From Sphaerolaimus hirsutus (Eukaryota; Nematoda; Chromadorea; Monhysterida; Sphaerolaimidae): 64,000 nt of DNA. The stretch is taken from the NCBI GenBank assembly GCA_964036195.1, contig OZ038455.1, positions 6,713,855 to 6,777,854 on the forward strand. Direction: 5' to 3'. The notes beneath the pieces were generated by a model. It was not told the DNA's origin and did no database searches. It worked only from the letters and a program-made list of their open reading frames with translations. Of the stretch, positions 10,397 to 59,000 are shown in pieces. Each line of letters starts with the position of its first letter. Position 1 is the stretch's first letter. The position numbers and the translations under genes were made by a program.

Positions 10397-10556
10397 GGGG
10401 CCAATCCCAGACCCTGTAAAATGTAAAATGTCATGTGGGTAATGTGCCAAAAGTCATGTAAAATGACCTGTGAGGTGGCAAACTAGTTTGCCACTTCACA
10501 TAACTTTTGACACTTTGCATGACATTTGACATTTTACAGGGTCCGGGCCTGCCTCC
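10397..10556 (+). mobile_element. Family A palindromic MITE
   Basis: Near-symmetric copy with ends GGGGCCAATCCCAGACCCTG and the inverted counterpart CAGGGTCCGGGCCTGCCTCC. The arms meet at 'ggcaaactagtttgcc'. It has lost the GT of the donor-like end. Confidence 0.7.
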
Positions 10557-20863: not shown

Positions 20864-21066
20864 GTGTGGCACTCTCAGACCCTGTAAAATGTCAAATGTT
20901 ATGCAAGGTGTCAAAAGCCATGTAATATGGCAAATGTCGTGCAGGGTGTCTACATTTGCCATATTCCAGGGAAGACATGACAATTGCAATTGCACATGAC
21001 TTTTGACATTTTGCAAGACATTTTAAATTTTACAGGACATTCTACAGAGTCTGGGAGTTCCCCCCT
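20864..21066. mobile_element. Family A palindromic MITE
   Basis: Ends GTGTGGCACTCTCAGACCCTG and GTCTGGGAGTTCCCCCCTG, with the arm words of family A. The acceptor-like end reads CTG rather than CAG, unlike the intron copies. Confidence 0.65.
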
Positions 21067-27887: not shown

Positions 27888-28016
27888 TCACACAGGCGTT
27901 GTCGCATTACTTTCAGAATAGTTGTTGCCATACTTCTTTTCTTCACTGGTCATTTCAAACTTGTATGGGTGTCCCTGGGCGCCCGTGACCCAATAGGTAG
28001 CCATTTGACCTTTGCC
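27888..28016 (-). CDS. Cyclase exon 10: C-terminus and stop
   Basis: Acceptor 'ttgcatgcag', then [10 protein letters not shown], the last strand of the cyclase fold (family pattern KGKG...TYWL). A 31-residue polar tail follows, ending NATTPV, with TGA at 27888-27890. It joins exon 9 in phase 0 (...VIIK/GKG). Confidence 0.9.
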   Translation of the reverse strand, partial: GKGQMATYWVTGAQGHPYKFEMTSEEKKYGNNYSESNATTPV

Positions 28017-31000
28017 CTGCATGCAATTTTTGTATTAAGTTCGCAATTCGCAAAGTTAAGTTTGTATTAAGCACGTTCTTATAGTTCACATTGTCGTTGT
28101 AGGAAATGTAGACACAAATATAGTTCTTTCCCGAATTAACCCTCCCCTCGAGATACTCCCAGAGTGTGAGCTTGTTTAGAGGAAAGTCGGTGAATATCAA
28201 TCCGTAGTCTCGCACCATGGAAAGTGTGAAATGTCAATAAAACATGTGATTTAGAAATTTTGCCTGACATTAACAAATTTTTATTTACATTTGGCACTTT
28301 TCTTTACACATTACAACGTGCGGGACTGTCATCTTAGCGTGCACATTTTTTCGGGATTTTGCGATACCGAGACCTCAATCCCAGTCCCAATCCCGAAAAG
28401 TCATTCCTACACATAAATCCACCTTAATAATCACACTGCCCCTGGGACGCGTCTTGAACATCTCGCTGTGCGCAGACTGGGGGCACTCTCAGACCCTGTA
28501 AAAGCCCTGTAAAATGTCAAATGTCAAGCAAAGTGTCAAAAGTCATGGAAAATGCCCTGCAAAATGGCAACCGAGTTGCCATTTTGCAGGGCATTTTCCA
28601 TGACTTTTGACACTTTGCATGACATTTGCCATTTTACAGGGCTTTTTACAGGGTCTGGGAGTGGCACCAGGTGTTCGCAAGCCGCGTCCGACACGTGCAC
28701 CCTGAGCGCCATGCCGCTCGACTGCATCCGCGACGCGGTGTTCACGGTGTCGCCGAACAGGCAGAACTTTGGCGCGCGCAGCCCCACCACCCCGGCGGAC
28801 ACGCTGCCTGCGGGTGGAGGTTTATACCGTATTTCTTCTAATAGAATGGCATGCTTCCAATAGAACGGCACCTCCAATATAACGGCTGGTTTTGGCCTGT
28901 TTTTGCGCTCACGAAAACAATACAACGGCAGATACAAATTACCTTCGAAGAGTGCCCAAACAACTGAGAAAATAATGGCGAGAACATTCAGTGCCTTCCA
29001 ATATTGATTTGGATATCAAATTGATGCTCGGATGTGAAAATATTGCTCGAGTGAAATTATGTCTAAGCAAAAAGAATGTGTGAATAAAATTCCTGAAAAA
29101 AATAGAACAGCAGCCTACAATAGAATGGCCGGTAAAAAAGTTGATGAAAAATATAATTGCACCCTTCTATTAGACTAAATACGGTAGATCTAGGTGCCTG
29201 TTAAGCCATTCAATTCAGCACACTGCATATGCGAATATACTTATCCAGCATTTGAAATTACCCATTGAGTATTTTTTCTCACAGAAAACGTAAAAATGGG
29301 TATTTTTCTCATATAAAATGTTAAAGTGTGTATTGCTTCTCACAGAAAATGTAAAAATCAGAAATTTAGCCAATTTGTACTCTAGAATACATCAAATATG
29401 TGTTTTTTCTCCCGATAACTATTTCTTAGGAAAATGTCCTATTTTGGTCACTTTCTGTCTGTCAAAACGTCACCTTCTATGTCCCGCTTTAATACGTTTT
29501 ACGTACTCGCGTACTTTCAAAAAAGTACGCGAGTAAGTGCGCACCGGTGTGTTTTTCGGGAGGAAACGTAAACGTATTTATACAGTACTCGAGTATCCGT
29601 ATTTATCGAGTAAACGTAAATATGTTTTAACAACTATGCTCGCACGCTCAACCCATCCAAACCGCACCGGTGTGAAAGCCGACGCGCACGCGTATGGCGC
29701 CGGAGCTGCCCTTCAAGTGCGGCACTTGCACGCCGTGCAGCGTGTGCACCAGGTCGAGGCTGGCGGCGGCGATGTTGCCCGAGTGGTTGTCGCCGCACCG
29801 CTCGGGCACCCCGCTAGACGCCACGATGCAGTCGCCCACTGTTTCTAGCTGTTGGTTGTTGGGGTTGTTGTTGGGGTGTGCAGGACCCAAATTCAATTGG
29901 AAGGTAGTAATGGCGGCCGAGACACTAGTTGATACACGTTGTCAACTCGGATTTCGGCTTCACGTGTTGCAGAGCGATCTTCCAATGCACTTGTCGTAAT
30001 GTACCGTATTACCTCGAAATACCCCCAGGGGGTTTATTATTTCGCCAGCAAAATTTGAGGGGGGGATAATTCGAGGGGGGGGGGTCTATTATTTCGCCAG
30101 AAATTTTCGGAAATTCCCCATACGCAGACGTAGAAAAATCGAACAATTACATTCATGTATATGTGTTTATAGGCATATATTACTGTATATACACAAAAAC
30201 CCTTCCCTAACGTCACTTAACCATCAGTTTTAACGTGTGTTCTGCATTGTACAGATCACAAACTGCGGTATTTGTCATGTACGATCACGTTACACTCAAT
30301 TTTAGGGGGGGGTATTTCGAGGGGGGGGGTTTATTATTTCCTCAGCCGAAATTGAGGGTTTTTTTTCGAGGGGGTGGTTCATTCAAGGGGGGGGGGGTTA
30401 ATTCGAGGTAATACGGTATATTTTTAAACATTGCCACATGTGCACTTGAAGATCGCTGTTTCACACGCTCCCGAAACCTGAATTGACACAAACCAGTTGA
30501 CACACGTGTGTCAAGTGAGTCAACTTGTGTTGACCGTGACTTGTGGGCCGCCTATGTGCGTGTTAGGCACCATTATGATTTTTGTGTCAGGTAAATTTTC
30601 AAACTGCGTTCGATTTGATAGAGCGTGCTCACCTTGTAACAATTTCTTGAGTGAAGGATTTCGTCCACGTTCGTGAATAAGAGGTTGAGTAGGTTAACGA
30701 CCTGCGTTATTATATTTACTATTTATCTATTCCCTGTTAGCATTGAGGTTGAACGCAGTACGACGTATAAGCTACAAGTAAATCTCTAAATGCAAATACT
30801 TGTCAGCGACAAGTCCACTTTTCATTTGCCTCACAACACACAAATCCACTTCCTCACATTCCTTGTCACATCCCCAGTAGTGATGTAAAGGCACCGGGGC
30901 ACCGGTGCCCCGGTGCTGGGCACCGAAGGGCACCAGCACCGGTGCTGGTGCGGTGCCATTGCAATCTTCAGGGGTGCCATGCCGGTGCCGGTGCCATTTT

Positions 31001-34000
31001 TTTCAGAATAGCACCGGTGCCGGTGCGGTGCGGTGCCATTTTTTTGCCGGTGCCAAAGGTGCTAGCACCAGGGACAAAGTGAAAGGCACCGGGAAAGGCA
31101 CCGGCCAAGGTTTCATGTGCTGTGCAACTTTGTCCACAGTATGTGCTTATTCATATTTCAAAAAACAGCGATATATTTACCCAACCGTTTTTGCCTATTT
31201 TGTAAACCTCCCATCAAATAAATATACCTACTGTGAAATCCATTATACCCGATACGGTATCTGATGAGCGAATCTAAAATTTTGTTGAATTTAAAATCAT
31301 TTTTATATTTTATATTTATCTTACTTGTTTGTTCAAAATTTGTTGTCAGTTTATGACAGAGATAGTTCCATTCTCTGTACATCAACGACTCCGATCAGTA
31401 GACAATAGTGGCTATGGACATTGCAGTGAATTAAATATTTTATCTTTCATTTGTAATCATTGTAATTGCTTCATAAAAGTGATTGCCACATCATTCTGAT
31501 CATTTTAAGTGCTCAACCATCAAAATCGGTTGAAAATTCATGGAAATATGCACTTCCAAAGGTGAGACCACTGAGAAACTGCCCGATATTTACTTCAGAA
31601 ATTCCAGCCCGGTGCGGTGCCTTTCGGTGCTAGCACCGGCAACCCGCCGGTGCCCTTCGGTGCCGGTGCCAATTTTTCCAAAAGGCACCGGTGCCGGTGC
31701 GGTGCGGTGCCATTTTCTGGCCGGTGCCCCAGGGTGCCAGGTGCCCTTTTCATGCGTTGGCAAAGGTGCCGGTGCGGTGCGGTGCCATTTTTCCCGGTGC
31801 CTTTAACATCACTAATCCCCAGTACAGAAATTGGCCCCTACCCATTCAACCAATACAACCAATCGCCCGTCTCTCACCTGAACAGGCGTGCTCTGCGCGC
31901 AAATTGGCGTGAAGCCAACAATATCCGCGAACATGACAGTGACGCAGTCGAACGATTCCGGCACCACCGCCTCGCCCATGCTCAGCTGCTTGACAATGTG
32001 TCTGCGGGCAGTCCCGCACTCTGTAGACAAAGTGTAAAGTCAAGTGTCAAATGTCGTGGAAAATGTCAATTAAGATATTACTGAACTTTTGACATTTTTC
32101 ACGGCATTTGACAAATTTGTGTAACATTTTGCGACAGAGACATTTGACATTTTGCATGGCATTTGACACTTGACCCTACACTTTGCAAAGTGCGGGACTG
32201 GCACCTGGGCAGAATCTCGTGCAGCAGATCGGCCATTTTCTGCTGTTCCCTGGCCAGCTTTTCCGTTTGCAATCCCAACTGCACAACCAGCTGTTTCGAC
32301 TGCTCGTGTATCGAGTGCGCGTGGTATGCCGCATAGCTTGTCTGCGATCGGGCTCGCGGCGATTTCTCGTGCACTCGAAGGACTAGTTCCGGTGCACTAG
32401 TAGATTTCCGGTGCACTAGAAGTGCTTCTAATGCATTTTTTAGTGCGTAGTCAATTTGATTATTTGAAAACTTTTTCTAAAATTTGAAAATTTGAAAAAA
32501 TTTGGAGAGTCTTAAATTTTTTTGTTTCAAATGTGCAGATTTTTTTACAAATTTTACAAATTGTGTGTGTAAAATACTTTTTAAAATTATAAATGTGTAA
32601 TACAATTTCTGGTCCCGGTGCCGGCCTGAAGAAACGAGGCCGGACCACTAAGGATGCTAGTCGTTTGGTATGCTGCCAAAAAGCTCACTTAGAATGCTGT
32701 TAGGCATCGCTTGACATGACAACCAGCTACACGCTGTATGCCACCATTAAATCATATCATGCTTGCTCATCATATGCAACACTTAAGGATGGATTTCATG
32801 AGCATTAGAAGTGAATTGAATTTGTTAAATATTTTTAAAGCATTTTCTTGTCACTTGCCTTGTGTTTTTTAAACTTTTTTACTGCTCAATTCACTTCTCA
32901 TTTTACTTCTCAATTCACTTCTAGCACAGTAGCACTTGAAATGAGGCACTACAGCGTACAAACTGTGCATTTCCGCGTCATACTAAATGACTAGCATACT
33001 ATACTAAATGATGCACCCCCCTCCCCCGAAGAAACTAGTCCTGTTTGAACCCTAACTCATTATGCATTAGTTCAGGTGTGAAAAAGAATTCTGCGAAGCC
33101 ATGCCGAAGGCCCTTTCCGAAATCCCGCTAGTATCGAAAATCGACCTCAAAATTTTCAAAATATCTCATAGTGACACCAAAAAGTTACTATTTTCGAACA
33201 CTAGTTGTGCAGGTGTAGAAATGGTCAAACTATGTGTTAGCATAAAACTAACAGCTAAAACAGCCAGTATCAAGGTCGCAATTAGCGAGATCAGGAGCAT
33301 AAAAAACTCTGCATTAACGTCTGCAACATTTTTGTCCAACACGCCCCGCAGATTATATTCAACCTGTGTATTTTATTAAAGATTTATTTTATGGTTGGTA
33401 TTAAAGATACCGTAAATATTTCCTCGAATTACCAATTTAATTAATTTCGTACCTTAGTACTTTAGTAATTACCTCGTAATTTTTCAGAGTGGAAATTTTT
33501 AGGGTGGGGGTATTTCGAGGAAATACGGTAAGTTGAAACTGGTGATATCTGTGGCCACTTCCGCAAGAGGCAAAGTAAAATGACAAATGGTAATAGCAAA
33601 GTACCTAATTTGATAAATGAGAAGTTGAAAGTGAGTTAAAACGTTAAGAGTAGAGTAGGGATGGCAAGCGCTTTTTTTAAAAAAAAAGCGCTGGCAAAAT
33701 TTTTTGTACTCATGCACTAGGTATTTTGCAATTTTTTTGCGCGCAAGCGTATAATTTCACATGCAAATTGCCATTTGTGGTTGTTTTCATTGGTTTTGTA
33801 GCATTTTAGTGGCATTGCTTCTAGTAATAATAAGTTGAGGAGATATGTCATTGTAGTAAATAATATCCAGCCAATGTGCTTCCACTTCTCTACAGTGTGA
33901 AACATCCTTCTCTACAGTGTGAAACATCACAGCCTTCTTTTATAGCCAAATTTAAGCACTATTCCATGCCTTACATCACTTGCAGTCAAGGAACATTCAA

Positions 34001-35188
34001 AAACGGCAATATACATCATGAGTCAACATAAAATTGGATTTTTTTGGCAGAAATCAGCACTTATAATGCTATCAGATGATTACACAGCCATTCTATGGCT
34101 ATATATCATCACAAGTACTGCCACTTGTCTGATATACCTGTGTATATTGACTCAGGACCATATTTGGGAGCTTTTTAGGTAACGTCTTGACATTTTTTGA
34201 AAAAAGCGAAAAAAGCGCATTTTTTAAAAAAGCACTTTTTTTTAAAAAAGCGGGGCCGTTAAAAAAAGCGCTCTTTTTCCATCCCTAGAGTAGAGTAAAT
34301 TGGTAAGAGACAAATGACAAATGACAAGAAAAAGTAAAAATAACATTTTTATAACATTTTCTTGTCATTTGCTACCCTTTAACGATTTACTCTAGTTTTA
34401 ACTATTCACTTCACTCTCAACCTACCATTTGTAAAATTACTTTGCTTTTACTTTAATCATCTGCATTTCACTTTCCCTCAAACCTGAGTGCCCAGCGAAC
34501 GTAGCAAAGCGATCCTTTGAGATATGGTCGAAAACCAGAACCGGGCCGACTCGCTTTCGTTCCGATCCGACTGGCTTATTTTCAATGGTGAATCGGCCAT
34601 TTGGAACACCATCGACTGGAGCGCCGAGTAATTTGTGGAAATCTGAGTTGATCACGAAGTTTGACATTTTGCAGGGCATTTTACATGACTTTTGACACTT
34701 TGCATGACATTTTACATTTTACACGGCATTTACCGTTGGCCTTCCTTGGCACTCGCCGCTTGGGAGTGGCAAGTTGGCAACCAGGTGCCAGTTCAGCAAA
34801 TTGAGAAGTGAGAAGTAAAATGGCAAATGCGAAGTAAATTGGCAAAAGCGAAGTCAAATGGCAAGTGAATTGGCAAAAGCGAAGTCAAATGGCAAGTGAA
34901 TTGGCAAAAGCGAAGTAAAAAAAAACTAATCCCTCGTCGCTTTCGCCATTTTACTTATCAATTCACTTCGCTTTTGCCATTTCACTTCGCATTTGCCATT
35001 TTACTTCTCACTTCTCAATTTGCGGAACTGGCCCCAGATGTTGGAGACAGTACGCCGATATTCACTAAAAATTCTGCATTTTGAACTGACCGATTCATTG
35101 GCCACTGCGAGCTTCTTATCATAGTTCCGCAACTCGTCGGTGGTGTACGAAGCCAACAAAAACAGGCCATTCGCGCTTCCTACCAATT
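27888..35188 (-). CDS. NIT-domain receptor guanylyl cyclase (5' partial)
   Basis: Joined model: 35091-35188, 34484-34642, 33231-33363, 32205-32352, 31878-32001, 30633-30701, 29668-29848, 28668-28807, 28423-28476, 27888-28016 (410 codons plus stop; all phases agree). Seen: an extracellular helical part like a NIT sensor domain, one membrane helix, a signalling helix ending EILPR, and a class III cyclase domain. Known of the family: such enzymes make cGMP from GTP as homodimers. Both metal aspartates (FADIVGF, VGDC), the guanine-selecting Glu and Cys (LETVGD, FCLFGD) and the Asn/Arg pair (NTASRM) are present, so it is predicted active. Inference: NIT-type receptor cyclase, because no kinase-homology region lies between membrane and helix. 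The signal peptide and the start of the NIT domain are missing and should lie above 35.2 kb, beyond transposons. Each long intron holds a different mobile element; two short ones are mobile elements. Confidence 0.85.
28423..28476 (-). CDS. Cyclase exon 9 (18 codons)
   Basis: Encodes [18 protein letters not shown], the segment before the KGKG strand. The PRG and VxxK pattern is usual here in receptor cyclases. The acceptor is the end of a family A element (GTGCCCCCAG). The donor is AAG|GTGGAT. Easily missed, because it is only 54 bases long. Confidence 0.88.
28477..28667 (-). mobile_element. Introner: family A element forming the whole intron
   Basis: On the gene strand the intron reads CTG|GTGCCACTCCCAGACCCTG ... 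CAGGGTCTGAGAGTGCCCCCAG|TCT. It is a near-perfect palindrome of 191 bases centred on 'ggcaactcggttgcc'. No intron sequence lies outside the element, and its own ends are the splice sites. Family A copies elsewhere (46459-46648, 53223-53370) have the same ends, so this is a dispersed element, not a local hairpin. Confidence 0.85.
28668..28807 (-). CDS. Cyclase exon 8: catalytic core
   Basis: Joined to exon 7 it reads [13 protein letters not shown]. It then has [13 protein letters not shown] with the base-selecting Cys and the Asn and Arg needed for catalysis, and ends DAACEHL. Acceptor 'ccacccgcag' (28808-28809), donor CTG|GTGCCA at phase 0. GC-rich compared with its surroundings. Confidence 0.92.
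28825..29186. mobile_element. Family E MITE in cyclase intron 7
   Basis: TACCGTATTTCTTCTAATAG ... TAGACTAAATACGGTA. The interior repeats 'aatagaacggc' words and their complements. It starts 18 bases beyond exon 8, so the intron's acceptor lies in the short spacer. Confidence 0.7.
29270..29640. mobile_element. Family H element in cyclase intron 7
   Basis: Words such as 'aaacgtaaacgtattta' occur in both orientations, and the right end is TTTTAACAAC near 29636. It occupies the intron next to exon 7. Confidence 0.5.
29668..29848 (-). CDS. Cyclase exon 7: second metal aspartate
   Basis: Starts [16 protein letters not shown], holding the guanine-selecting Glu and the second metal-binding Asp. It continues to RVRVGFHTG. 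Acceptor 'caaccaacag', donor ACCG|GTGCGG (phase 1). Family members usually have GDAY or GDAF where this one has GDCI. Confidence 0.9.
30002..30418. mobile_element. Family E MITE in cyclase intron 6
   Basis: TACCGTATTACCTCGAAATA ... TTCGAGGTAATACGGTA, an inverted repeat with poly-G/poly-C tracts and 'tttattatttcgccag' words. The TA at each end may be the target duplication, as in Tc1/mariner elements. Confidence 0.75.
30633..30701 (-). CDS. Cyclase exon 6 (23 codons)
   Basis: Encodes [15 protein letters not shown] followed by LHSRNCYK. This is the helix after the first metal site (family pattern VVxLLNDLYxxFD...YKVE). It bridges exons 5 and 7 exactly in phase 0 on both sides. Acceptor 'ataacgcag', donor AAG|GTGAGC. 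The usual Asp after LLN is Leu here. Confidence 0.85.
30878..31814. mobile_element. hAT-like family D element with GGTGCC words
   Basis: Inverted ends TAGTGATGTAAAGGCACCGG ... CCGGTGCCTTTAACATCACTA, with an exact 8-base duplication ATCCCCAG at 30870-30877 and 31815-31822. About 200 bases inside each end are packed with GGTGCC, GCACCGG and similar words. The centre is AT-rich and non-coding. It fills most of cyclase intron 5. Confidence 0.88.
31878..32001 (-). CDS. Cyclase exon 5: first metal aspartate
   Basis: With exon 4 it reads [17 protein letters not shown]. It continues [15 protein letters not shown], whose Asp binds metal, and ends STPVQ. The acceptor is the end of a family A element (CTGCCCGCAG). 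The donor is CAG|GTGAGA at phase 0. Confidence 0.93.
32002..32204 (-). mobile_element. Introner: second family A element forming a whole intron
   Basis: The gene-strand intron reads CCCAG|GTGCCAGTCCCGCACT ... AGTGCGGGACTGCCCGCAG|ACAC, 203 bases. Both ends are the element's inverted repeat. The interior has the family words 'agtgtcaaatg', 'catggcatttgac' and complements. The exon sequences abut it directly on both sides, and the reading frame is restored only when exactly this element is removed. Confidence 0.85.
32205..32352 (-). CDS. Cyclase exon 4: signalling/dimerisation helix
   Basis: Encodes a polar stretch and then the coiled-coil linker [19 protein letters not shown], which couples the receptor part to the catalytic domain. 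Donor CCCAG|GTGCCA (phase 2). Two acceptors are possible: 'ccgcgag' (exon from 32352, fits the exon 3 donor used here) or 'gatcgcag' (exon from 32341). Confidence 0.82.
32655..33021. mobile_element. Family C element in cyclase intron 3
   Basis: Diverged copy of the element at 21650-22045: 'gatgctagtc', 'tgctgccaaaaagctcactt', the AT-rich middle, and 'gcatactatactaaatgatgcacccccc' at the far end. Confidence 0.6.
33231..33363 (-). CDS. Cyclase exon 3: transmembrane segment
   Basis: Acceptor 'aatacacag', then [20 protein letters not shown] and an uninterrupted hydrophobic helix ([19 protein letters not shown]). This places the upstream NIT-like part outside and the cyclase inside the cell. Phase 0 from exon 2. 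The donor is uncertain: 33231 (CATA|GTTTGA) fits exon 4 from 32352; a donor at 33202 would fit exon 4 from 32341. Confidence 0.7.
33408..33530. mobile_element. Family E MITE, short
   Basis: TACCGTAAATATTTCCTCGAA ... TATTTCGAGGAAATACGGTA. It lies in cyclase intron 2. Confidence 0.65.
33656..34287. mobile_element. hAT-like element, family G, in cyclase intron 2
   Basis: Ends TAGGGATGGCAAGCGC and GCGCTCTTTTTCCATCCCTA, with an exact 8-base duplication GAGTAGAG at 33648-33655 and 34288-34295. It sits inside an older inverted repeat of 'aaatgacaaatgg' words (about 33540-34440). It is the best reference copy for the split one at 2164-3852. Confidence 0.87.
34484..34642 (-). CDS. Cyclase exon 2: NIT-like sensor part
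   Basis: Phase 0 at both ends (acceptor 'atcaactcag', donor CAG|GTTTGA), 53 codons. The frame chosen encodes [20 protein letters not shown] and later [20 protein letters not shown], an amphipathic helical pattern like the second half of a NIT domain. Two other frames are also open across it. This one is preferred because it joins the transmembrane exon in phase. Function by family: small-molecule sensing outside the cell; ligand unknown. Confidence 0.62.
34664..34775 (+). mobile_element. Half of a family A element
   Basis: One arm only: 'gacattttgcagggcattttacatgactttt' to 'gggagtggc'. It lies in cyclase intron 1, next to the family B element. Confidence 0.55.
34784..35037 (+). mobile_element. 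Family B palindromic MITE with GT...AG ends
   Basis: Reads CCAG|GTGCCAGTTCAGCAAATTG ... CAATTTGCGGAACTGGCCCCAG|ATG. The arms are built of 'gcgaagtaaattggcaaaa' words. It shares the GTGCCA/CCCCAG end pattern with family A but lies in the opposite orientation to the gene, inside a larger intron. A second copy is at about 63172-63409. Confidence 0.75.
35091..35188 (-). CDS. Cyclase exon 1 (first found): N-terminal NIT-like part
   Basis: Acceptor 'caccaccacag' (or one slightly upstream), donor TCG|GTCAGT at phase 0. It encodes [20 protein letters not shown] and ends KKLAVANES, which continues naturally into exon 2. The typical ERG motif of NIT domains would lie in an earlier exon, which I did not find. 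Confidence 0.5.
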
Positions 35189-36224: not shown

Positions 36225-38139
36225 TAGGGTGTCAAATTTCCGTTTCCGTTTCCGCCTTTCCGCAGGAAAATTTTTTACCTTTCCGTTTTCCGTTTTCCGG
36301 CAGCCGAAAAAATTTTACCTTTCCGTTTTCCGTTTTCCGGCAGCCGAAAAATTTTTACCTTTCCGTTTTCCGTTTTCCGGCAGCTGAAAATTTTTTACCT
36401 TTCCGTTTCCGTTTTTCCGGCCCATTTTTCCATTTTCTGGCTGAAAAATTTTTACCTTTCCGTTTCCGTTTTACCAGGCCATTTTTCCATTTTCTGGCTT
36501 GATTTTCAGTTTTCTGGCATTTTTCCATTGTTTTTCCAATCTGTATTTATCTTCAATTGGCTCATCCCATTGTGTTGTTTTTGTCTCTTGGAGCAGCATT
36601 GACAACTGGGATTTCAGGGTCAGTGAAACAGGTGCTGTGAACCCAATTGGGTCATATGCTGACACCAATAATTTATTCAAGTTTCGTCTGGTTGGTGTTG
36701 TGATGCTGTCAATGTGCAATTTTGGTGTTGATATTGCCAGCATGTCCATGATGTGATTTTATTTCATGCCCATTACTGCGACAATTTTATTCACCTTTGG
36801 ACTCCTGTCATTTTCTGCTATTTCATTCATGACTGATCTGGAGTTTGACAGCCATTCCCTCATGTTCATAGAACATTGGTTAAATAAAGCTTTGACTTTG
36901 TAATATAGTTCTAAAGCTTCAACTTCATTTGTGACACTCATAATGAAGTTATCGACGTAAATGTTGTTTATTATCATCGCCAACTGGTTTTGTTCCCCTT
37001 CATTTTCTTCATATTCATTCATGTTGTTTATTGTCACATTTAAATGGTATTTTATGACTGCTCCCAAAATTGCTGGGCTGCAGACAAGTCCAAACAGTAC
37101 GTGTTTAAAATGAAGTACTATTAAGTTATTTTCAGTTACTGGTTTTGATCTTTCAGCCAGAAAAATCGTGTGTAGTCTCTAGCTTGGTCATGCAATCCTA
37201 TTTGCAAAAATGCCTTTTCAATATCAGCAATTGATGCTAGATTGCCTGCCCTGAACCTCAGGAGTAGGCCCAGTGCTAATGGTGTTGTAATTGGTCCTCT
37301 AATAAGGCACTCGTTGAAACTGGGCTTACCTGCTGACCCATCGTACACGATTCTGCATGATGTCGATTTGCCTGGTGTGATTACTGGCTGGTGTGGCAGG
37401 TAATGAATCCCCTTGTTGTCTGTTTTGTCGTAACAGATGTCAATTATTCCCTTTTTCTAGTTGGTTGTCCAAAACTTTCCGGTATTGTTCGAATAAGTTT
37501 GGATCTTTGTTGAATCTTCTTATCAGTGATTTAAACCGCACCAAGGCTTCTGCTTTTCCCGTGGGCAGGTCACTGATACTCTCTTCATACGGCCAGTCAA
37601 TATAGTATCGTTTGTTGTTGTCGTTGAATTTTATGCTATTTATTATCATCTCCTCTGCAATGTTGTCATCAATTGCATAGGGGTCATCAGTGATTCCCAC
37701 TGCTTCTAGACTGTGAAATTGTCGTAGTGTTTCCTTTCCTATGGCCACTATGGCTACTTTTTGATGATTTTTTGTTGGTTCAGTTAAGCTTGAACTACAA
37801 GTGAAGTTACAGGCATGATCCATAGTTGCAGAATGTACAGCTACCACAATCAAAGCCAAACAGGCAAACCTGCATGCAGGTTTTCCTTCTGCAAATTTGT
37901 CTATTACCGTGCTAATTTCACTTTATTTTTTTCTGTTTCCGTGAAAATTTTGTTTTCCGTTTTCCGTTTTCCGGCATTTCATTTTTCCGTTTTCCGTTTT
38001 CCGGCTGACAATTTTTTTTTACCTTTCCGTTTTCCGCTGAGTGAAGTTTTTTTACCTTTCCGTTTTCCGTTTTCCGGCAGAAATTTTTTTTTTACCTTTC
38101 CGTTTTCCGTTTTCCGTAAAAAATTTTTTTGACACCCTA
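36225..38139. mobile_element. hAT-like element carrying a BEL/Pao fragment
   Basis: Inverted ends TAGGGTGTCAAA ... TTTGACACCCTA, with an exact 8-base duplication TGTACAGC at 36217-36224 and 38140-38147. Both outer arms (36240-36520, 37905-38130) are tandems of 'cctttccgttttccg'. The middle 1.3 kb is a retrotransposon reverse transcriptase in the minus direction. Confidence 0.82.
36471..37859 (-). pseudogene. BEL/Pao-type reverse transcriptase fragment, frameshifted
   Basis: In gene order (high to low coordinates): an N-terminal pol region (37440-37859), the palm motif IADIEKAFLQI (about 37220), FGLVCSPA (about 37090), IYVDNF as variant of the YVDD active site (about 36960), and a connection segment with SAYDPIGFTAPV (about 36640). 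This motif order and the 'DPIGF' block are characteristic of BEL/Pao elements. The frame breaks at about 37455 and 37135 and near 36755. No gag, integrase or LTR accompanies it. It is a dead fragment with part of the second active-site Asp pair lost. Confidence 0.8.
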
Positions 38140-38209
38140 TGTACAGCCTATTCAGACAAACTGAAAAAATTGGCTGTATCCATTATATCAATGGTGCCTG
38201 CTGCAAAAT

Positions 38210-38409
38210 NNNNNNNNNNNNNNNNNNNNNNNNNNNNNNNNNNNNNNNNNNNNNNNNNNNNNNNNNNNNNNNNNNNNNNNNNNNNNNNNNNNNNNNNNNN
38301 NNNNNNNNNNNNNNNNNNNNNNNNNNNNNNNNNNNNNNNNNNNNNNNNNNNNNNNNNNNNNNNNNNNNNNNNNNNNNNNNNNNNNNNNNNNNNNNNNNNN
38401 NNNNNNNNN
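38210..38409. other. Assembly gap (200 N)
   Basis: Exactly 200 N. It separates the hAT-like element from the retrotransposon pol fragment. The upstream reverse transcriptase part of that element may be collapsed or missing here. Confidence 1.
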
Positions 38410-40125
38410 ACTCTGAAGTACTGTTTGGCCTCACCGCCAGTTTTAGTACATCCTGTGTGCGATGGTCGACCATTTTACTTGGAAACTGATGCAAGTGCAC
38501 AAGGGCTCGGAGCAGTTCTATCACAATATGATGACAACAATCAGCTACATCCTATATCATTTATTTCTAAGCGACTGACACACCCTCATTCTACATTTTC
38601 AGCTGCAGAACTAGAAGCATTGTGTATTGCGTGGGCAGTTCGCAGACTGGCGGATTTTGTGGAGGGGCAAAATTTGATTGTCATTACTGACAATAGCGGA
38701 ATAGCACAAGTGTTGAAATCGCCGTCGCACAGTAAATTGGAACGTTGGTCGATCTTCATTCATGAGCGCGTGACGCAATTCATGCATCGTTCAGGCAAGC
38801 AAAACATGGTTGCTGATTCTTTATCGCGAAACCCAATCGAACAACCAGCATTTGGTGAACATGAACTTGACGAAGGAACTTCTATGGTCAAAAGTTACCC
38901 AGCGCGCATGATTGATACAGGGGTACACTTTCCGCGGGCACCACATCTTTCAAAAATAATTAGCACTTCGCATTCAATTGATTGGCAACATATACAGAAT
39001 TCTGACCCGGAGCTTAGTTCAATAAAGAGTCAATTAGAGATGGATCCTTCCAGCATTCCAGGCGCTATGATAATCGACAACATTGTCTACTTTGCAGTGG
39101 CCGGGAAAGACAACGAATTTGCAATTTGGCCCCCTAAAACATGGCAAGATGCTTGTTTAGCGCAGGCACACTTGGGCGTGTACGCTAGTCATGGAGGCCA
39201 ACGCCGCACTATCGAATTATTATGCCATTATTTTTCTTGGCCCACACTAAAAAAAGACGTTTTGGCATACTGTAACAATTGCACAAAATGCATGCAGCAT
39301 AAAACACATCGGCTGCATCCCGGACCATTAGGAGCTACTGACACACCTTCACAACCATTTGATGTCCTGCACGTGGACACTTTACAACTAGAACAAGGTA
39401 ATCAGAAGTCAAAAGTGGTGGTAGTAGTGGACGCTTTTACTCGGTACGTTATAGCCATTCCCGTGACTTCACTTTCAGCCACTACGGTAGCACGGGCAAT
39501 ATTAACGAAGGTATTCCTAATTTTCGGCGCCCCCAGATTGATTATATCTGACCAGGGGACAGAATATGTGAATGAATCTTTCAGGCAGCTGTGCAATACT
39601 TATGGAACTGTCCATTCACCCACGCTCTCACATAATCCCCCGGCTAATGGGATGGTTGAAGCCGTGAACGGACGGCTGCGAGAACAATTGTGTATAGTGA
39701 AGTCTGAATTTCCTTCATTACACTGGCGAGATTTACTGCGCATGGCGGTACTCAAACATAATCTAGCGTACAACAGATACACTGCATGTTGTCCCTTTTT
39801 CCTAACATACGGTTTTCTACCGCACTGGAACTTATTTTTCGCAGCGGCAAAAAAATTGGATGTGCAGTCTGTCCGCATGGCAGCGCAAACACACAGCGAT
39901 AAAAGCAGGGCAATGTATAAGGAATATTTTGATTCTAAACACTCTGTCACAATTAAAGCTGGCGATACCGTCATGGTACGCAATTTGTCTGGTGACAAAA
40001 CTTTGCCGAAATTTTCGGGTCCCATGGAAGTCACAGATGTTGTGGGGCCAACCGTTTTTGTCAATATGGATGGTGTGGTACATAAGTTACCACATCGCTA
40101 TTGCTGGAGAGTCAATAAATTATAA
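38410..40125 (+). CDS. Ty3-type retrotransposon pol: RNase H and integrase (5' partial)
   Basis: 572 codons without a stop, running out of the gap to TAA at 40123-40125. RNase H is complete in its acidic residues (YLETDAS, AAELEAL, ITDNSG, VADSLS). The integrase has the HHCC zinc finger (residues about 250-300 of this part), then the DDE triad: HVDTL, ISDQGTEY and, 36 residues later, MVEAVN. The C-terminus has an SH3-like strand region (PKFSGPMEV). Order RNase H then integrase, and the motif spacing, fit Ty3/mdg4 elements. The reverse transcriptase lies in or before the gap. The intact frame suggests recent insertion. I could not identify LTRs. Confidence 0.9.
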   Translation, partial: TLKYCLASPPVLVHPVCDGRPFYLETDASAQGLGAVLSQYDDNNQLHPISFISKRLTHPHSTFSAAELEALCIAWAVRRLADFVEGQNLIVITDNSGIAQVLKSPSHSKLERWSIFIHERVTQFMHRSGKQNMVADSLSRNPIEQPAFGEHELDEGTSMVKSYPARMIDTGVHFPRAPHLSKIISTSHSIDWQHIQNSDPELSSIKSQLEMDPSSIPGAMIIDNIVYFAVAGKDNEFAIWPPKTWQDACLAQAHLGVYASHGGQRRTIELLCHYFSWPTLKKDVLAYCNNCTKCMQHKTHRLHPGPLGATDTPSQPFDVLHVDTLQLEQGNQKSKVVVVVDAFTRYVIAIPVTSLSATTVARAILTKVFLIFGAPRLIISDQGTEYVNESFRQLCNTYGTVHSPTLSHNPPANGMVEAVNGRLREQLCIVKSEFPSLHWRDLLRMAVLKHNLAYNRYTACCPFFLTYGFLPHWNLFFAAAKKLDVQSVRMAAQTHSDKSRAMYKEYFDSKHSVTIKAGDTVMVRNLSGDKTLPKFSGPMEVTDVVGPTVFVNMDGVVHKLPHRYCWRVNKL

Positions 40126-46280: not shown

Positions 46281-46774
46281 TAGTGATGTAAAAGCGCCAT
46301 GGCGCTGGCGCCAGACACTTGGCGCCATTTTGCTATGGCGCTATTGGTGCTTTTTGCACTGGGAATTGGAAAAGCGCTATGGCGCCTTTGTGCTTGTGTT
46401 GAAAGTGTGCAACAGGTGTCTCCCGGCTGAGTAGTAAGACGATCAACTACTACACGTGGTGGCAGTCCCAAGCCCTGTAAAGTGTAAAGTGTCAAATGCA
46501 AAGTCAAATGCAAAGTAAACTGTCAGTTGTCATGCAAAGTTCAGTAATCAATTCTTTTCTTTTTTGTTTTGATTGACACTTTACTTTGCATTTGACTTTA
46601 CATTTGACACTTTACTTTACACTTTACAGGGCTTGGGACTGCCCCCTGGCGCCATTTTTACTTGACATTCGTGCAAGACGCCATTTCGCTCTTCTGGCGC
46701 CAGAGGTCGGAAACGCGCCACGCGAAACGCGTTTGGCGCTCCGCGTCAAACTTTTAGCGCTTTTTAGATCACTA
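46281..46774. mobile_element. Family D element with a nested family A copy
   Basis: TAGTGATGTAAAAGCGCCATGG ... GCGCTTTTTAGATCACTA. Its interior GGCGCC words are interrupted at 46459-46648 by a family A MITE. The flanking 8-mers do not match exactly. Confidence 0.65.
46459..46648 (+). mobile_element. Family A MITE inside a family D element
   Basis: GTGGCAGTCCCAAGCCCTG ... CAGGGCTTGGGACTGCCCCCTG, arms nearly perfect. The acceptor-like end reads CTG, not CAG. Confidence 0.8.
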
Positions 46775-53076: not shown

Positions 53077-56000
53077 CTGCGATGAATTTTTTTGTGGGAT
53101 TAATTTTTGATTTTTGAACACTTTTGGAAAACAATGAATTTTTGGAAAAAAAATCCAGTTGTACTTGTGATGATTATGTTTGATTCAAAGTGTGATAATG
53201 TGCCTGCGCACACGCACACTTGGTGCCAATCCCAGACCCCGTGAAAAGCCCTGTAAAATGTCAAATGTTATGCAAAGTGTCAAAAGTCATGGAAAATACC
53301 CTGCAAAAGACACTTTGCATGACATTTGACATTTTGTAGGGCTTTTTACAAGGTTTAGGAGTGCCCCCTGCTTACACACGAAATTTCGAAAACTCGCAAA
53401 TCAGCTTAGGATGCATTTGAGTTCTCTGTAACGCTGGCAAACAGTCGAAAAAAAAGTATTTAAATTTTTAAGTGGTTTTTCTGAAATGAATTTTCGAATT
53501 TTCGAATTTTTCTCAAAAATGATTTTCGAATTTCGAATTTTCGAATCTTTTTGGCAATTTTCGAATTTTTTTGACTAGTTTTTGAATTTTTTTTGGAAAA
53601 ATATTGAATCTGAAGCTTTAAACACATAACTTGGACTGTTTTCATGTTCTCCTAAGTTTTTATAACCTTATTTTTTACCATAATTTAGCATTAAAATGGT
53701 GGAAGGCATTATACAGACCAATGTCTTGCTTCTTCATTTAATTCACACATTGACACATTTTATTCACCAACACAGCAAAGGCAATAAAAACAACAATTTA
53801 AAAATCAGTGCCAAATAAAATATCGGCATCAAATAGAATATTGGCTTCAAATAAAAAAATTGGCATCAAATACCGTATTTCCTAGAATTAATCCCCCCGG
53901 GGGGTTTATTACTTTGCCAGAAATTTTTCGAAATCCCAGAATGAAGTTTTTGTTTGTAAGTAACCCAGATGTAAAAAATGCAACAACAACCGCCATTTAT
54001 AAGACTCTATAGACTTTTATAAGTACGTAGACGCTACAAACCCTGTTCTAACACAACACAGTCATTGTTTTTAACGTGTGTTCTGCGTTTCCCAGATAAC
54101 AAACCGCATTACGTTCTCTATACATCAAATTTGGGGGGGTATTTCAAGGGGGGTTATAAATTCGTAGTGCAAATATTGAGTGGGGTATTTTGAGGGGTGG
54201 GGATATTTCAAGTAAATACGGTATAAAAACAGATGTGTCGAAGTCCGCCTCTTCCGCCGCGGATGACATTTCAATGTTTTTTGTTACGTTTCGCTTTTTC
54301 GCATATCAATTGTCGATTTATTTAGCATGTTGAACTTAAGAGTGCGTTTTGTTGCCTTGAATTCCCTGAAAAATTCGAAAACTATTTAAAATTTTTTTCG
54401 AATTTTTTGAAAAATAAACCGATTTTTAAGTGTTTTTTCTAGGGGTGAAATAAAAATTCGAAAATTCCGAAAAAATTCGAAAACGTTTTCGAATTTTCGA
54501 ATCTTTTTTTGGCCATCGTTAGTTCTCTGCAATGAGGTCGCAATCAACTATAGTTGACGGAGATTACAATGCCTCATTGTTGGAAACTTAAACACGTTCA
54601 AAGCATTAATGAATTTTAACATTAGTGAGTTTTCGAAATTTCATGTGAAAACTAGTATGCGCAGCGCCAATAGTTTTGAATGTAAAATTTGGTTGCATTT
54701 CGCATTTCCAACAGGTAAATACTTGAATGATTTTAAAACATAGAAAATTATTTAAAAAATCAACGATTTTTCAAACAGAACGGGGTGACCTCCACATGTC
54801 AGATTTTTCCCGCAAAAATCCCTACACACCTCAAAAATCCCCCCTCTAAAAACACTCACTTTCGGTCATCCGCAAGGAATTGCTCCTTTTCACCTTGGCA
54901 GTTCTGTGCTTCAAATAATCCACATTGAAACTGCCCCAACCGTGGTCGTTTTTGGCGCGGATTTGAATGTCGTACAGGGTGTTCGCTTCAACTTGATCGA
55001 TTATATAGTTTGATGACCAGGTGTGACGCTGGGTTTTCGATAGCAATGTGCTCGCTGAATTGGGGGGGGGTATTTTATTTTTTTTATTATTAAAAAAGCA
55101 TTTCTGGGTGTGGTGAATGTTTTTTTTCGCAAAGTTCCATTCACAATGCTTTTCGTGATTATTCACACTAATTTGTTTTTTTCTTTTTACTTACTCAAGT
55201 GTGCAGACTATTAGTAAAGATAACGATAAAACATGGTTAGCGTTCTAAAAAATGGGTGCTTAGCAGAAAATATAGTTAAATATACAGGGTGCGGCAATTT
55301 AGACGGACCCGATAAAGTTTGAAAAAACTTGTCACTGGGTAGTCGTATTTACGTCAAATTTGAGGTCAACATTAACAACTAAATAGGAAAGGATCCCTGA
55401 AAATATGGCTGCGATAGCTCCACTCGTTCACAAGTTATTCATGTGAACGCGTAATTGTCACTTTTCCACCACCTTGTGATATCGTTCAAACGGGATTGAC
55501 TTCTCGGGACCGGGATCGGATTGTTTTTTTCAGGGTTTTTTTTTCTGATATTCTTTTCGCAGCTGCATGCCTAAATGCGTGCACGCTCGCCAGCAATTCG
55601 CTATGCCCACAAGGAAATCGGCGGGCGCTTGCGTAATTGGTCGTAAAGCTAGGTGGTGGAAAAGTGACAATTACACGTTTCAATGAATAACTTGAGAACG
55701 AGTCGAGCTATCGCTGCCATATTTTCAGAGATTCTTTCCTATTTAGTTGTTAATGTTGACCTAAAATTTGACGTCAATCCGACTACCCAGTGACAAGTTA
55801 TTCAAAACTTTATGGGGTCCGTCTAAATTGCCGCACCCTGTAATCTCATAAAAAATCCCCAAAAGTGCGTTATAATTAAATTTCGCTGAAAAAATGCTAA
55901 GAAAATACTAATAAATATAAATGGGCGATTTTTTACATTTTTTTCTCATAAAATCAATATACCTAATTAGATCAGCTTCCCGGAAACAAACCTGGAGAAA

Positions 56001-59000
56001 ATATGACTCAATAATATCAAATTTATAAATATTTTCGTGTATTTTAAAATACATCAATCTCCCGAAATATTTGGAACCCTAAAACACGGTACAAACATCA
56101 CATTAAACCCCCCCCCCCCGAAACAGACCCTTCCTAGGCTCGTAAAATACCGTATTCCACTGATCCAAACCCAATTTGTCACTCTTCCCCATATGCGGCT
56201 TCCAGCGGATTTCATACTCAGTGATATCGCTCGCAGATTGTATATGCCAGCGAAGCGAAATTCTGTTTCCATAGGTGCCATCTACTGATATCAAGGGGGG
56301 TCCGGGCAGGCCTGGAATTTTTTAGGAGGGGGGAGTTATTTGGGGGTGGGTTTTTTGGTGATTGGATTAATGCTGTTTTGGGTATGTAAAACCCCATCTT
56401 TATCACAATCCGCCTCGAAAATTTCTGGGGAAATAATACCGCCCTCGAAATAGCCCCTCAACATTTTCACTTTGAAAAAATAAACCCCATGGGTAGTGAT
56501 GGAAAATCGTCACTGCGCTGGCGCCTGGCGCTAGCGCTAAAGGAATAGCGCCATGACGCGTTTGGCGCTATTTTTGCATGGTGTCAGGAACAAAATGCCT
56601 CGTGCTGGCGCTAGCGTTTTAGCAAAAAGCGCCGTGGCGCCAGGCGTCATTTTGCTCTGGCGCTATTGGCGCTCGTCGCCGAAGTCCTGGCACTTTTTCT
56701 ATCACCATCCTGGGGGTATTTTGTAAATAAACCGTAAAATGAAAACTTAAAATTAATCTGGAACTTTTCTGGATCCTTTAAACCGGCACTTATCACATAA
56801 CTCTTGCCCTCTGGCACCCTCAAATGTCACAAATCAAAACTAATTGCAGAAATTCAAACATCAATCAAACAAACCAGTCAATGCGACATCCACTTTTTTC
56901 TCGCCCATATGATTAGCCACTCTGCACGTGTAAGTGCCGAAATCCGCCTCGTTCACGTCATTGATACTCAGGAAAACTTCCGTGTGATTATCGCGAACTG
57001 CTTGGAACATTGCCAAACGGCCCGGAGTTGACAACTGGGGGGGGGATTGAAAGTGGGAATTTTGTGGGAAAATTGGGGGGGAGGGGGGTAGTAATGTCAC
57101 TACAGAAAATGTATTTTATTATATTTTGGGTTTAGAAATTTATGTATGTTTACTTTCCAGAATCAAATCTTTTTGTAAAATCAAATTTTTGAATTCAAAA
57201 GGGGCGGCTAATGGCTATCCATTGTGCGGTGATTTTGATATCTTTTCGTCTAAATGCATGAAGTGCTGTAATGTTTTTCATTATTTGAAAAGGAAACGTT
57301 ACTGATTTGAAGGAAGGTTGAACAATTAGGCGAAAATCTAGAATAGCAAAGAAAACAGAATAGAAACATGCTGAAAAACAGGCCATCCTCGAATAATCTT
57401 CCCTTAAACACCCACCTCCCCAATCATTAAAAACAAAACAAAAAAAAACAAAAAAAACTGACCTCCAACGGAAAATTGTTGTGCATCCAAGTGACCTGCG
57501 GTTCCGGTTCGGCCACAAAAACGCACGTCAAATTGACAGATTCCCCTATGGCGCCGGCGATCATTCTGTGCGGCGTGTGCACTTGGGGCGCGACTGCGTA
57601 GGGCGCAAAAGTAGGGTTTAGGGTAGGGTTTTCGTAGGGATTTTGCAGGGATGTAGGGATTCTAAGGGGCACCACTCTGTGGCGCGCTAATGTAAAAAGC
57701 TCCGGATTTTTGTGGACACACGCCAATGGTGCCAGTTGAATAAATGTGAAGGGAACAGCTTTAAAAAAGTGAATATCACTATTTCTGTACATATTATTTA
57801 CATCGTGGCATATTCTTACCGTACTTTTATTGCGACCCATTTTTGAACGGAATTAAATTCTCAAAATTGCCTCATTGTGACATTTTTTAAACGAAAAATC
57901 GCACGGATAGGTAAATTCAGGCGCCGGTGGAGACACAGCAAAATGACACCATGCGTTTTTACCATAATGGCCAAAGATGGTACTACTCGAAATTGAAAAA
58001 TTGGTGCACGGTACATGCTGACAAATACTTTTTGCAATTTTAAAAAATGCTTTTGTATTCCCGTCTATTTACCCATTTTCAATGCTTAAGGCCACGTGGT
58101 AGTTGGACAAGAAGTTTTCCCACCCGAAACCCACACATAACCTAATGATAAACATCCCCATGAAATTTAGGCAACATTACAAGCGGAAAGGCAACACAAC
58201 ACTAATTATAGCACATTAACATCTACTATCATAAGAAAATATTTACAAACGAACACCCAAGCACAAAACACGGAAAATTCTTACCATCAATACTGGCATT
58301 TGGCGCTGGAAAACATATTCGAACTAATACATAAATATTTATAACAATGGGGAACCAAGAAATGTTAATTTTGCTCCAAACAACCCCCGGTTATCAAAAT
58401 AGTAGGGGGCAAGTGGCAAGAAAGCCCATAAAATCCAACTACTTATCTATTTTGCCGATAATTTTTTCGCCACAAAAAACATATATCCTCGAGTGTGGGG
58501 AGTTATTCAAGGGGTGGTTTATTTTTTTCCTAACTCACCCAACAGGGGGGAGTTTTTCAGGGGAGAGAGTCATTCAAGGGGGTCTTATTCAAGGATATAT
58601 GGTATTACCAATGAAATCAATATCCACTGTTAATTTGCATGTGAAAATGCCCACTTGCGCGTACAAAAACTTGCAGAATACCAAAAAAAAATTTAAAAAA
58701 ACTTAACGTGCAACCCCACCCAAAAACACAAACCAAACAAAACTCACAATGCACATTGACCCTAATCTGCCTTCGATCTTCACCCAAATCGTTTCTGGCC
58801 GTACATTCGTAAGTGCCAGAATCCGCGGAAGTAGCCTTGGCGATGTAAAATCGACCCCCCTTTGCGGACGTTTTCGTGGCCTTACCCCCTTGGACACTTG
58901 TGGATGGAGGGTTTTCGTCCTGGGTTGTTGGGATTGGGATCAATGAGTAGGTAGGTTTTATTTGGTAGACTCCGCCCACTGCGTGCAGTCCATTTTTCTG

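Follow-up and report, generated by a model that had tools for sequence, protein, structure and literature searches.

The window, by which we mean the whole stretch of 64,000 nucleotides analysed here, contains a guanylate cyclase gene on the minus strand whose domain is traceable across exons from position 32296 to 27957; searches beyond the window were made in a genome assembly of 348 Mb in 762 contigs. Two introns of the cyclase domain correspond end to end to MITEs, and these belong to different families (A and D). The remaining exon borders of the gene are ordinary GT and AG sites, with one donor and one acceptor set by eye. Elsewhere in the window we noted by eye a retrotransposon-like open frame with RNase H/integrase-like character and a run of N (38041-40125) and, on the minus strand at 54846-59213, pieces of exons from an animal gene that resemble Ig and fibronectin domains. 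The features are collected in Table 1.

Table 1. Features of the cyclase locus, related elements in the same window, and other genes with elements at homology-spanned junctions (positions are those of the window unless a locus is given).
Feature	Location	Strand	Remarks
Window	G000:C7:6713855-6777854		
Exon before cyclase intron 1	32205..32296	-	Upstream limit not set
Upstream target copy	32205..32207	-	CAG in sense, retained in exon
Cyclase intron 1	32002..32204	-	Element plus downstream CAG; GT-AG, phase 2, 203 nt
Family A MITE, GTGCCAGTCCC...GGGACTGCCCG	32005..32204	-	
Downstream target copy	32002..32004	-	CAG in sense, source of the 3′ AG
Exon after cyclase intron 1	31878..32001	-	End is CAG/GTGAGA
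Cyclase exon	30633..30701	-	23 residues
Cyclase exon LETVGDC...HTG	29668..29848	-	Donor by eye
Cyclase exon ...AGVVGL...EHL	28668..28807	-	Acceptor by eye
Cyclase intron 2	28477..28667	-	Family D element 28480-28667 plus downstream CAG; GT-AG, phase 0
Cyclase exon	28423..28476	-	18 residues
Cyclase exon	27957..28016	-	12 residues at the start
Family B MITE	34785..35034	+	CAG both sides, GT end first on plus; candidate intron only
Family C MITE	46459..46645	+	Ends as family B; candidate intron only
DNA primase large subunit	L029		Junction spanned; PDB ungapped at junction
p85 SH2	L014		Junction spanned; PDB ungapped at junction
Trypsin	L051		Junction spanned by Pfam
ZP-N	L055		Weak, 21.6 bits vs cut-off 24.7
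NUP210	L060		Junction spanned; PDB ungapped but weak, E 0.077

The preliminary description had reported a palindromic element at 32002-32204 whose exact removal restores the reading frame, and both statements are borne out: the bases and coordinates agree, the inverted repeat is visible by self-comparison, and excision joins CTGCCCAG to ACACATTGTC in phase 2. The length of 203 bases that it gave to the element is that of the intron; the element proper has 200 bases, and the final CAG is the second target copy. The unspliced frames across the intron contain stops, 203 nt is 2 mod 3, and the peptide obtained after removal of the 203 bases, EILP-R-HIVKQL, aligns ungapped to solved cyclases. The joined cyclase peptide aligns with natriuretic peptide receptor 1 (PDB) without a gap across the junction (E 8e-47 for the joined protein), and a Pfam HNOBA match spans the same junction at 20.9 bits, below the cut-off of 23.4; a short cyclase peptide found no match in the protein database. 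The sense strand of the intron with short flanks (236 nt) is predicted to form a single long hairpin (-97.7 kcal/mol, z = -9.9, equalled by 0 of 200 shuffles), as is the element copy in the p85 gene. At cyclase intron 2 the upstream target copy is CTG (28668-28670) and the downstream copy CAG, and this junction is also spanned by a Pfam/PDB match.

These elements belong to a large MITE superfamily with common ends (CWG/GTGSCAGTYCC...GGRACTGSCCC/CWG, slashes marking the target borders), behind which lie several internal sequences (A to D). A genome search for the element gave at least 76 matches, from 40 scored among 1676 candidates. We also sampled tiles, twenty 10-kb stretches at regular spacing from four contigs only (C1, C2, C4 and C6). 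A scan of the window and tiles for the end motifs yielded 25 candidates, against none in a single mononucleotide-shuffled control, and L029:2236 and L039:846 were dropped by eye as other families. The 200 kb of tiles hold 15 superfamily copies, 14 from the scan and one from a palindrome search. Many copies lie outside exons, and the flanks of 24 elements have a GC content of 0.51 against a background of 0.41 (P 6e-10). Palindromic stretches of all kinds number 189 in 264 kb (window plus L029-L048), a frequent one having ends like TACCGTATTNCCTCGA. Judged by divergence, family A is old, since no other copy among the matches scored exceeds 74% identity to the cyclase copy over its full length, and family D is young, since most of its copies are 90–96% identical (40 scored of 1482 candidates). 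One young family D copy recurs on C4 in several locations whose flanks are alike (L044:5139-5329, L050), which suggests a recent segmental duplication.

The two terminal repeats are unlike at the second base: one end has GTG, the other usually GGG. Flanking triplets were counted for 37 elements: 13 from the tiles, 7 from the window, 14 full-length family D copies (from 40 scored, chosen blind to their flanks) and 3 family A loci added because of their coding appearance; L037:6911 (GGG at both ends), L045:8959, two elements of the window (at 10398 and at 20866) and all other family A loci were left out. Read with the GTG end first, the triplets are CAG/CAG in 17 elements, CTG/CTG in 8, CTG/CAG in 2 and CAG/CTG in 1, while 9 elements have other pairs; CTG stands on the right side in 12 of the 37. 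They are identical in 25 of 37 elements, compared with a mean of 14.3 after shuffling of the right ends between elements, and the middle base agrees in 25 of the 28 CWG/CWG pairs (Fisher P 1.2e-4). Because the triplets thus match across the element beyond chance, CWG is a true 3-bp target duplication and not a fixed element end. The base preceding the target triplet is C in 25 of 37 elements, and the base following it is G in 18. This bears on the proposal in the preliminary description that a family A insertion carried the splice sites in its ends. The GT does lie in the terminal repeat, but the AG derives from the 3-bp CAG duplication; that both sites are carried by the element is ruled out, as the final triplet follows the target.

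On the strength of the sequence, the intron at 32002-32204 is very probably an introner, that is, a non-autonomous NuwaI-like (PIF/Harbinger-like) MITE that inserted in an exon and is removed by splicing. Such a MITE would insert into an exon at a CWG target and duplicate 3 bp. If the target is CAG and the element lies with GTG at its upstream end, the upstream CAG would remain exonic, the first bases of the element (GTG) would become the 5′ splice site, and the C-rich element end together with the downstream CAG would become the 3′ splice site, giving an intron of the form GTGSC...SCCC + CAG. As the upstream CAG would be kept and the downstream one spliced out with the element, excision would restore the original codon. 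Because the repeats differ at the second base, GT would be offered in one orientation only, and this donor may have been created by a G-to-T change in a GGG repeat. The long hairpin may aid splicing by bringing both sites together.

Similar junctions are found elsewhere in the genome. We searched Pfam with the sense joins from 22 elements (for L059 the downstream side only), and in seven cases a Pfam or PDB match runs across the junction: the two in the cyclase gene and those in the primase, p85, trypsin, ZP and NUP210 genes (the trypsin join had no PDB match at E 0.001). The GTG end lies upstream in sense in 7 of these 7 (P 0.016), a figure that includes some selection, as most of the joins were selected by eye among sense frames. 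Among the others, a KH domain (L047) matched on the upstream side only, the downstream side tested at L059 matched a cuticlin domain, which would fit a moulting animal, and the receptor-like gene L022 gave a weak PDB match only (E 0.057). There was no Pfam match for the sense joins of L022, L028, both L030 copies, L038 (two), L046:691, L044 (two), L053, L054, L058, L062 and L063, apart from weak chance-level matches at L046:691 and L030:7065. The antisense joins of 23 elements, searched in one frame each, gave none above the Pfam cut-off and two at chance level (E 0.11 and 0.2). The exon downstream of the insertion at L014 matches p85 (E 1e-5) and the exon upstream of the insertion at L049 matches primase (E 3e-16); to judge from these matches, both genes look intact beside the insertion. 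Strand choice by open frames or codon use was not decisive: both flanks carry an open frame of at least 33 aa in 21 of 34 elements when read in sense and in 19 of 34 when read in antisense (11 and 7, respectively, for the 14 family D copies), and a small codon-use model applied to 33 elements assigned 8 to sense and 2 to antisense, left 23 undecided and missed the trypsin case. The preliminary description is supported in that one MITE makes up exactly one intron; related copies recur in the exons of other genes with their target site duplicated.

Could the MITE instead have landed inside an older, ordinary intron and filled or replaced it? MITEs are dense in this genome, as the count of palindromic stretches shows, and other introns of the cyclase gene contain repeats. 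An internal insertion would, however, leave old intron sequence at both ends, whereas the ends of element and exon coincide to the base, with target duplication, in two cyclase introns and in other genes, and we regard this origin as improbable. Still less probable is removal of the element from DNA, by precise somatic excision of the PIF/Harbinger-like kind, instead of from RNA. PIF/Harbinger excision usually takes the element and one 3-bp copy exactly, according to the available text of PMC2836001, and such a process needs no AG and so would account for the CTG cases described below, but it leaves the upstream position of GT in sense in all seven homology-spanned copies unexplained. Introner insertion followed by splicing remains our preferred reading.

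A CTG target would give the same intron a TG end. Of the seven spanned junctions, three have CTG on the right, namely primase (left CGG, right CTG) and p85 and NUP210 (CTG both sides). We therefore sought in-frame, stop-free GT-AG alternatives with donors from -30 to +90 and acceptors from -90 to +45 of the element borders. In primase such an alternative adds 3 residues, and in weaker cases it removes 1 residue (a BTB-like gene) or 2 (L030:935). In p85 the sole in-frame alternative in range deletes eight residues including the FLVR motif, in NUP210 the mildest swaps seven residues for two, and in the receptor-like gene L022 the mildest deletes nine; within the range searched, no GT-AG alternative spared the conserved residues of these three genes. 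The simplest reading of these sequences is that GT-TG introns are spliced here. It is nearly an even question, though, whether the CTG copies are instead harmful recent alleles, or are bypassed by nearby GT-AG splicing with small protein changes, with no GT-TG splicing at all. The mild options in primase, the BTB-like gene and L030:935 and the youth of family D fit that alternative; the losses or replacements of conserved residues in p85, NUP210 and L022, the conserved exons that adjoin the insertion in p85 and primase, and the frequency of CTG on the right among the 37 elements speak against it. TG 3′ splice sites are known as alternatives in 36 human genes in what is available of PMC2374985, so an animal can use TG as a 3′ splice site; the human TG is an alternative site, whereas here it would be the sole 3′ end of some introns.

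As to a source of transposase, the genome contains a DDE_Tnp_4 family with at least 163 matches (150 scored of 306 candidates). More than 130 of the family's matches are nearly identical (e.g. C7:5781237-5781869), and most carry about four in-frame TGA codons within the matching stretch, which may reflect an intron of the transposase gene. The peptide from 200 bases of one copy is one that we take to be PIF/Harbinger-like, and no family D copy was present in the 200 bases read. The MITEs themselves would be mobilised by a NuwaI-type transposase. NuwaI transposons (PHIS/PIF-Harbinger-like) are described, in the portion of PMC4482050 at hand, as duplicating CWG, having repeats that usually start GGG and occurring mainly or only in animals. 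The CWG target duplication is found here too; of the two terminal repeats, one usually starts GGG and the other GTG. NuwaI families were described with transposases, whereas those here are short MITEs acting as putative introns, likened to NuwaI by their ends and target.

Introners (PMC9860276) are likewise non-autonomous DNA elements making introns in exons. In our data, related elements occur at many positions with similarity reaching the splice borders, and copies lie in coding exons where their removal restores the protein (seven junctions, one below the Pfam cut-off). The class of mechanism, with one splice site carried and the other co-opted, is already known from that survey: in its available text, some families carry one site and recruit the other from the duplication, and in Chrysochromulina the 5′ site is carried and the 3′ site co-opted. 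The Chrysochromulina introner has 4-bp duplications and no inverted repeats, as opposed to the 3-bp CWG duplication, long palindrome, asymmetric repeat ends, animal host and possible GT-TG ends found here. Introners are rarely reported in animals, with two animal groups among the 3,325 genomes of the survey, and the word Harbinger does not occur in PMC9860276. The titles and abstract beginnings of the introner literature searched, a partial coverage, contained no tie of introners to CWG or NuwaI elements. The introner elements of Amoebophrya (PMC7789003, in excerpt) resemble these in being hairpin introns with inverted repeats and 3–5 nt border direct repeats, and many are non-canonical; Amoebophrya is a dinoflagellate with very variable splice motifs and no family-specific repeat, whereas GT is constant here.

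The introns of Fritillaria (PMC13326754, likewise in excerpt) offer an animal parallel, with a repeated triplet (YAY) at exon and intron ends and non-AG 3′ ends, but this is a tunicate with AG-AC/AG-AT ends and duplicated U2AF, as against GT-AG and perhaps GT-TG here. A tunicate host is ruled out by the mitochondrial code, in which AGA reads as Ser, and introns of the Fritillaria type by the GT donors as well. In the COX1 gene (L064, G000:C762:1905-3239, on a contig of 14,754 bp) AGA is Ser, ATA is Met and TGA is Trp; the named records nearest to the protein, which include insects and the priapulid Halicryptus, are about 69% identical to it, and the closest database protein is 91% identical (among the best 120 of 7999).

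Taken together, these observations permit a broader reading that we hold tentatively and lean slightly against, in which a NuwaI-like MITE lineage serves as an intron factory, a GGG to GTG change providing the donor and CWG duplication the acceptor. Because the CWG target is strand-symmetric, many gains would begin as GT-TG introns, spliced by the host, and in some of them a later T-to-A change of one base in the right-hand target copy would convert the ends to GT-AG; cyclase intron 2 and L058 (CTG left, CAG right) would be candidates for such a conversion. The genome may hold some ten thousand such introns, by rough extrapolation from 7 exonic among 15 copies in the 200 kb of tiles (2 recognised by homology and 5 by open frames only). 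What would be new, if true, is the transposon lineage, its CWG target and the TG ends that may occur. Here the passage from transposon to intron is legible base by base, from the GT end and the source of the AG to the one working orientation, and the natural CAG and CTG copies could show whether an animal spliceosome accepts TG as a sole 3′ end and whether proto-introns later become canonical. Mobile DNA appears to be generating introns in this genome, and some of these may have an unusual end.
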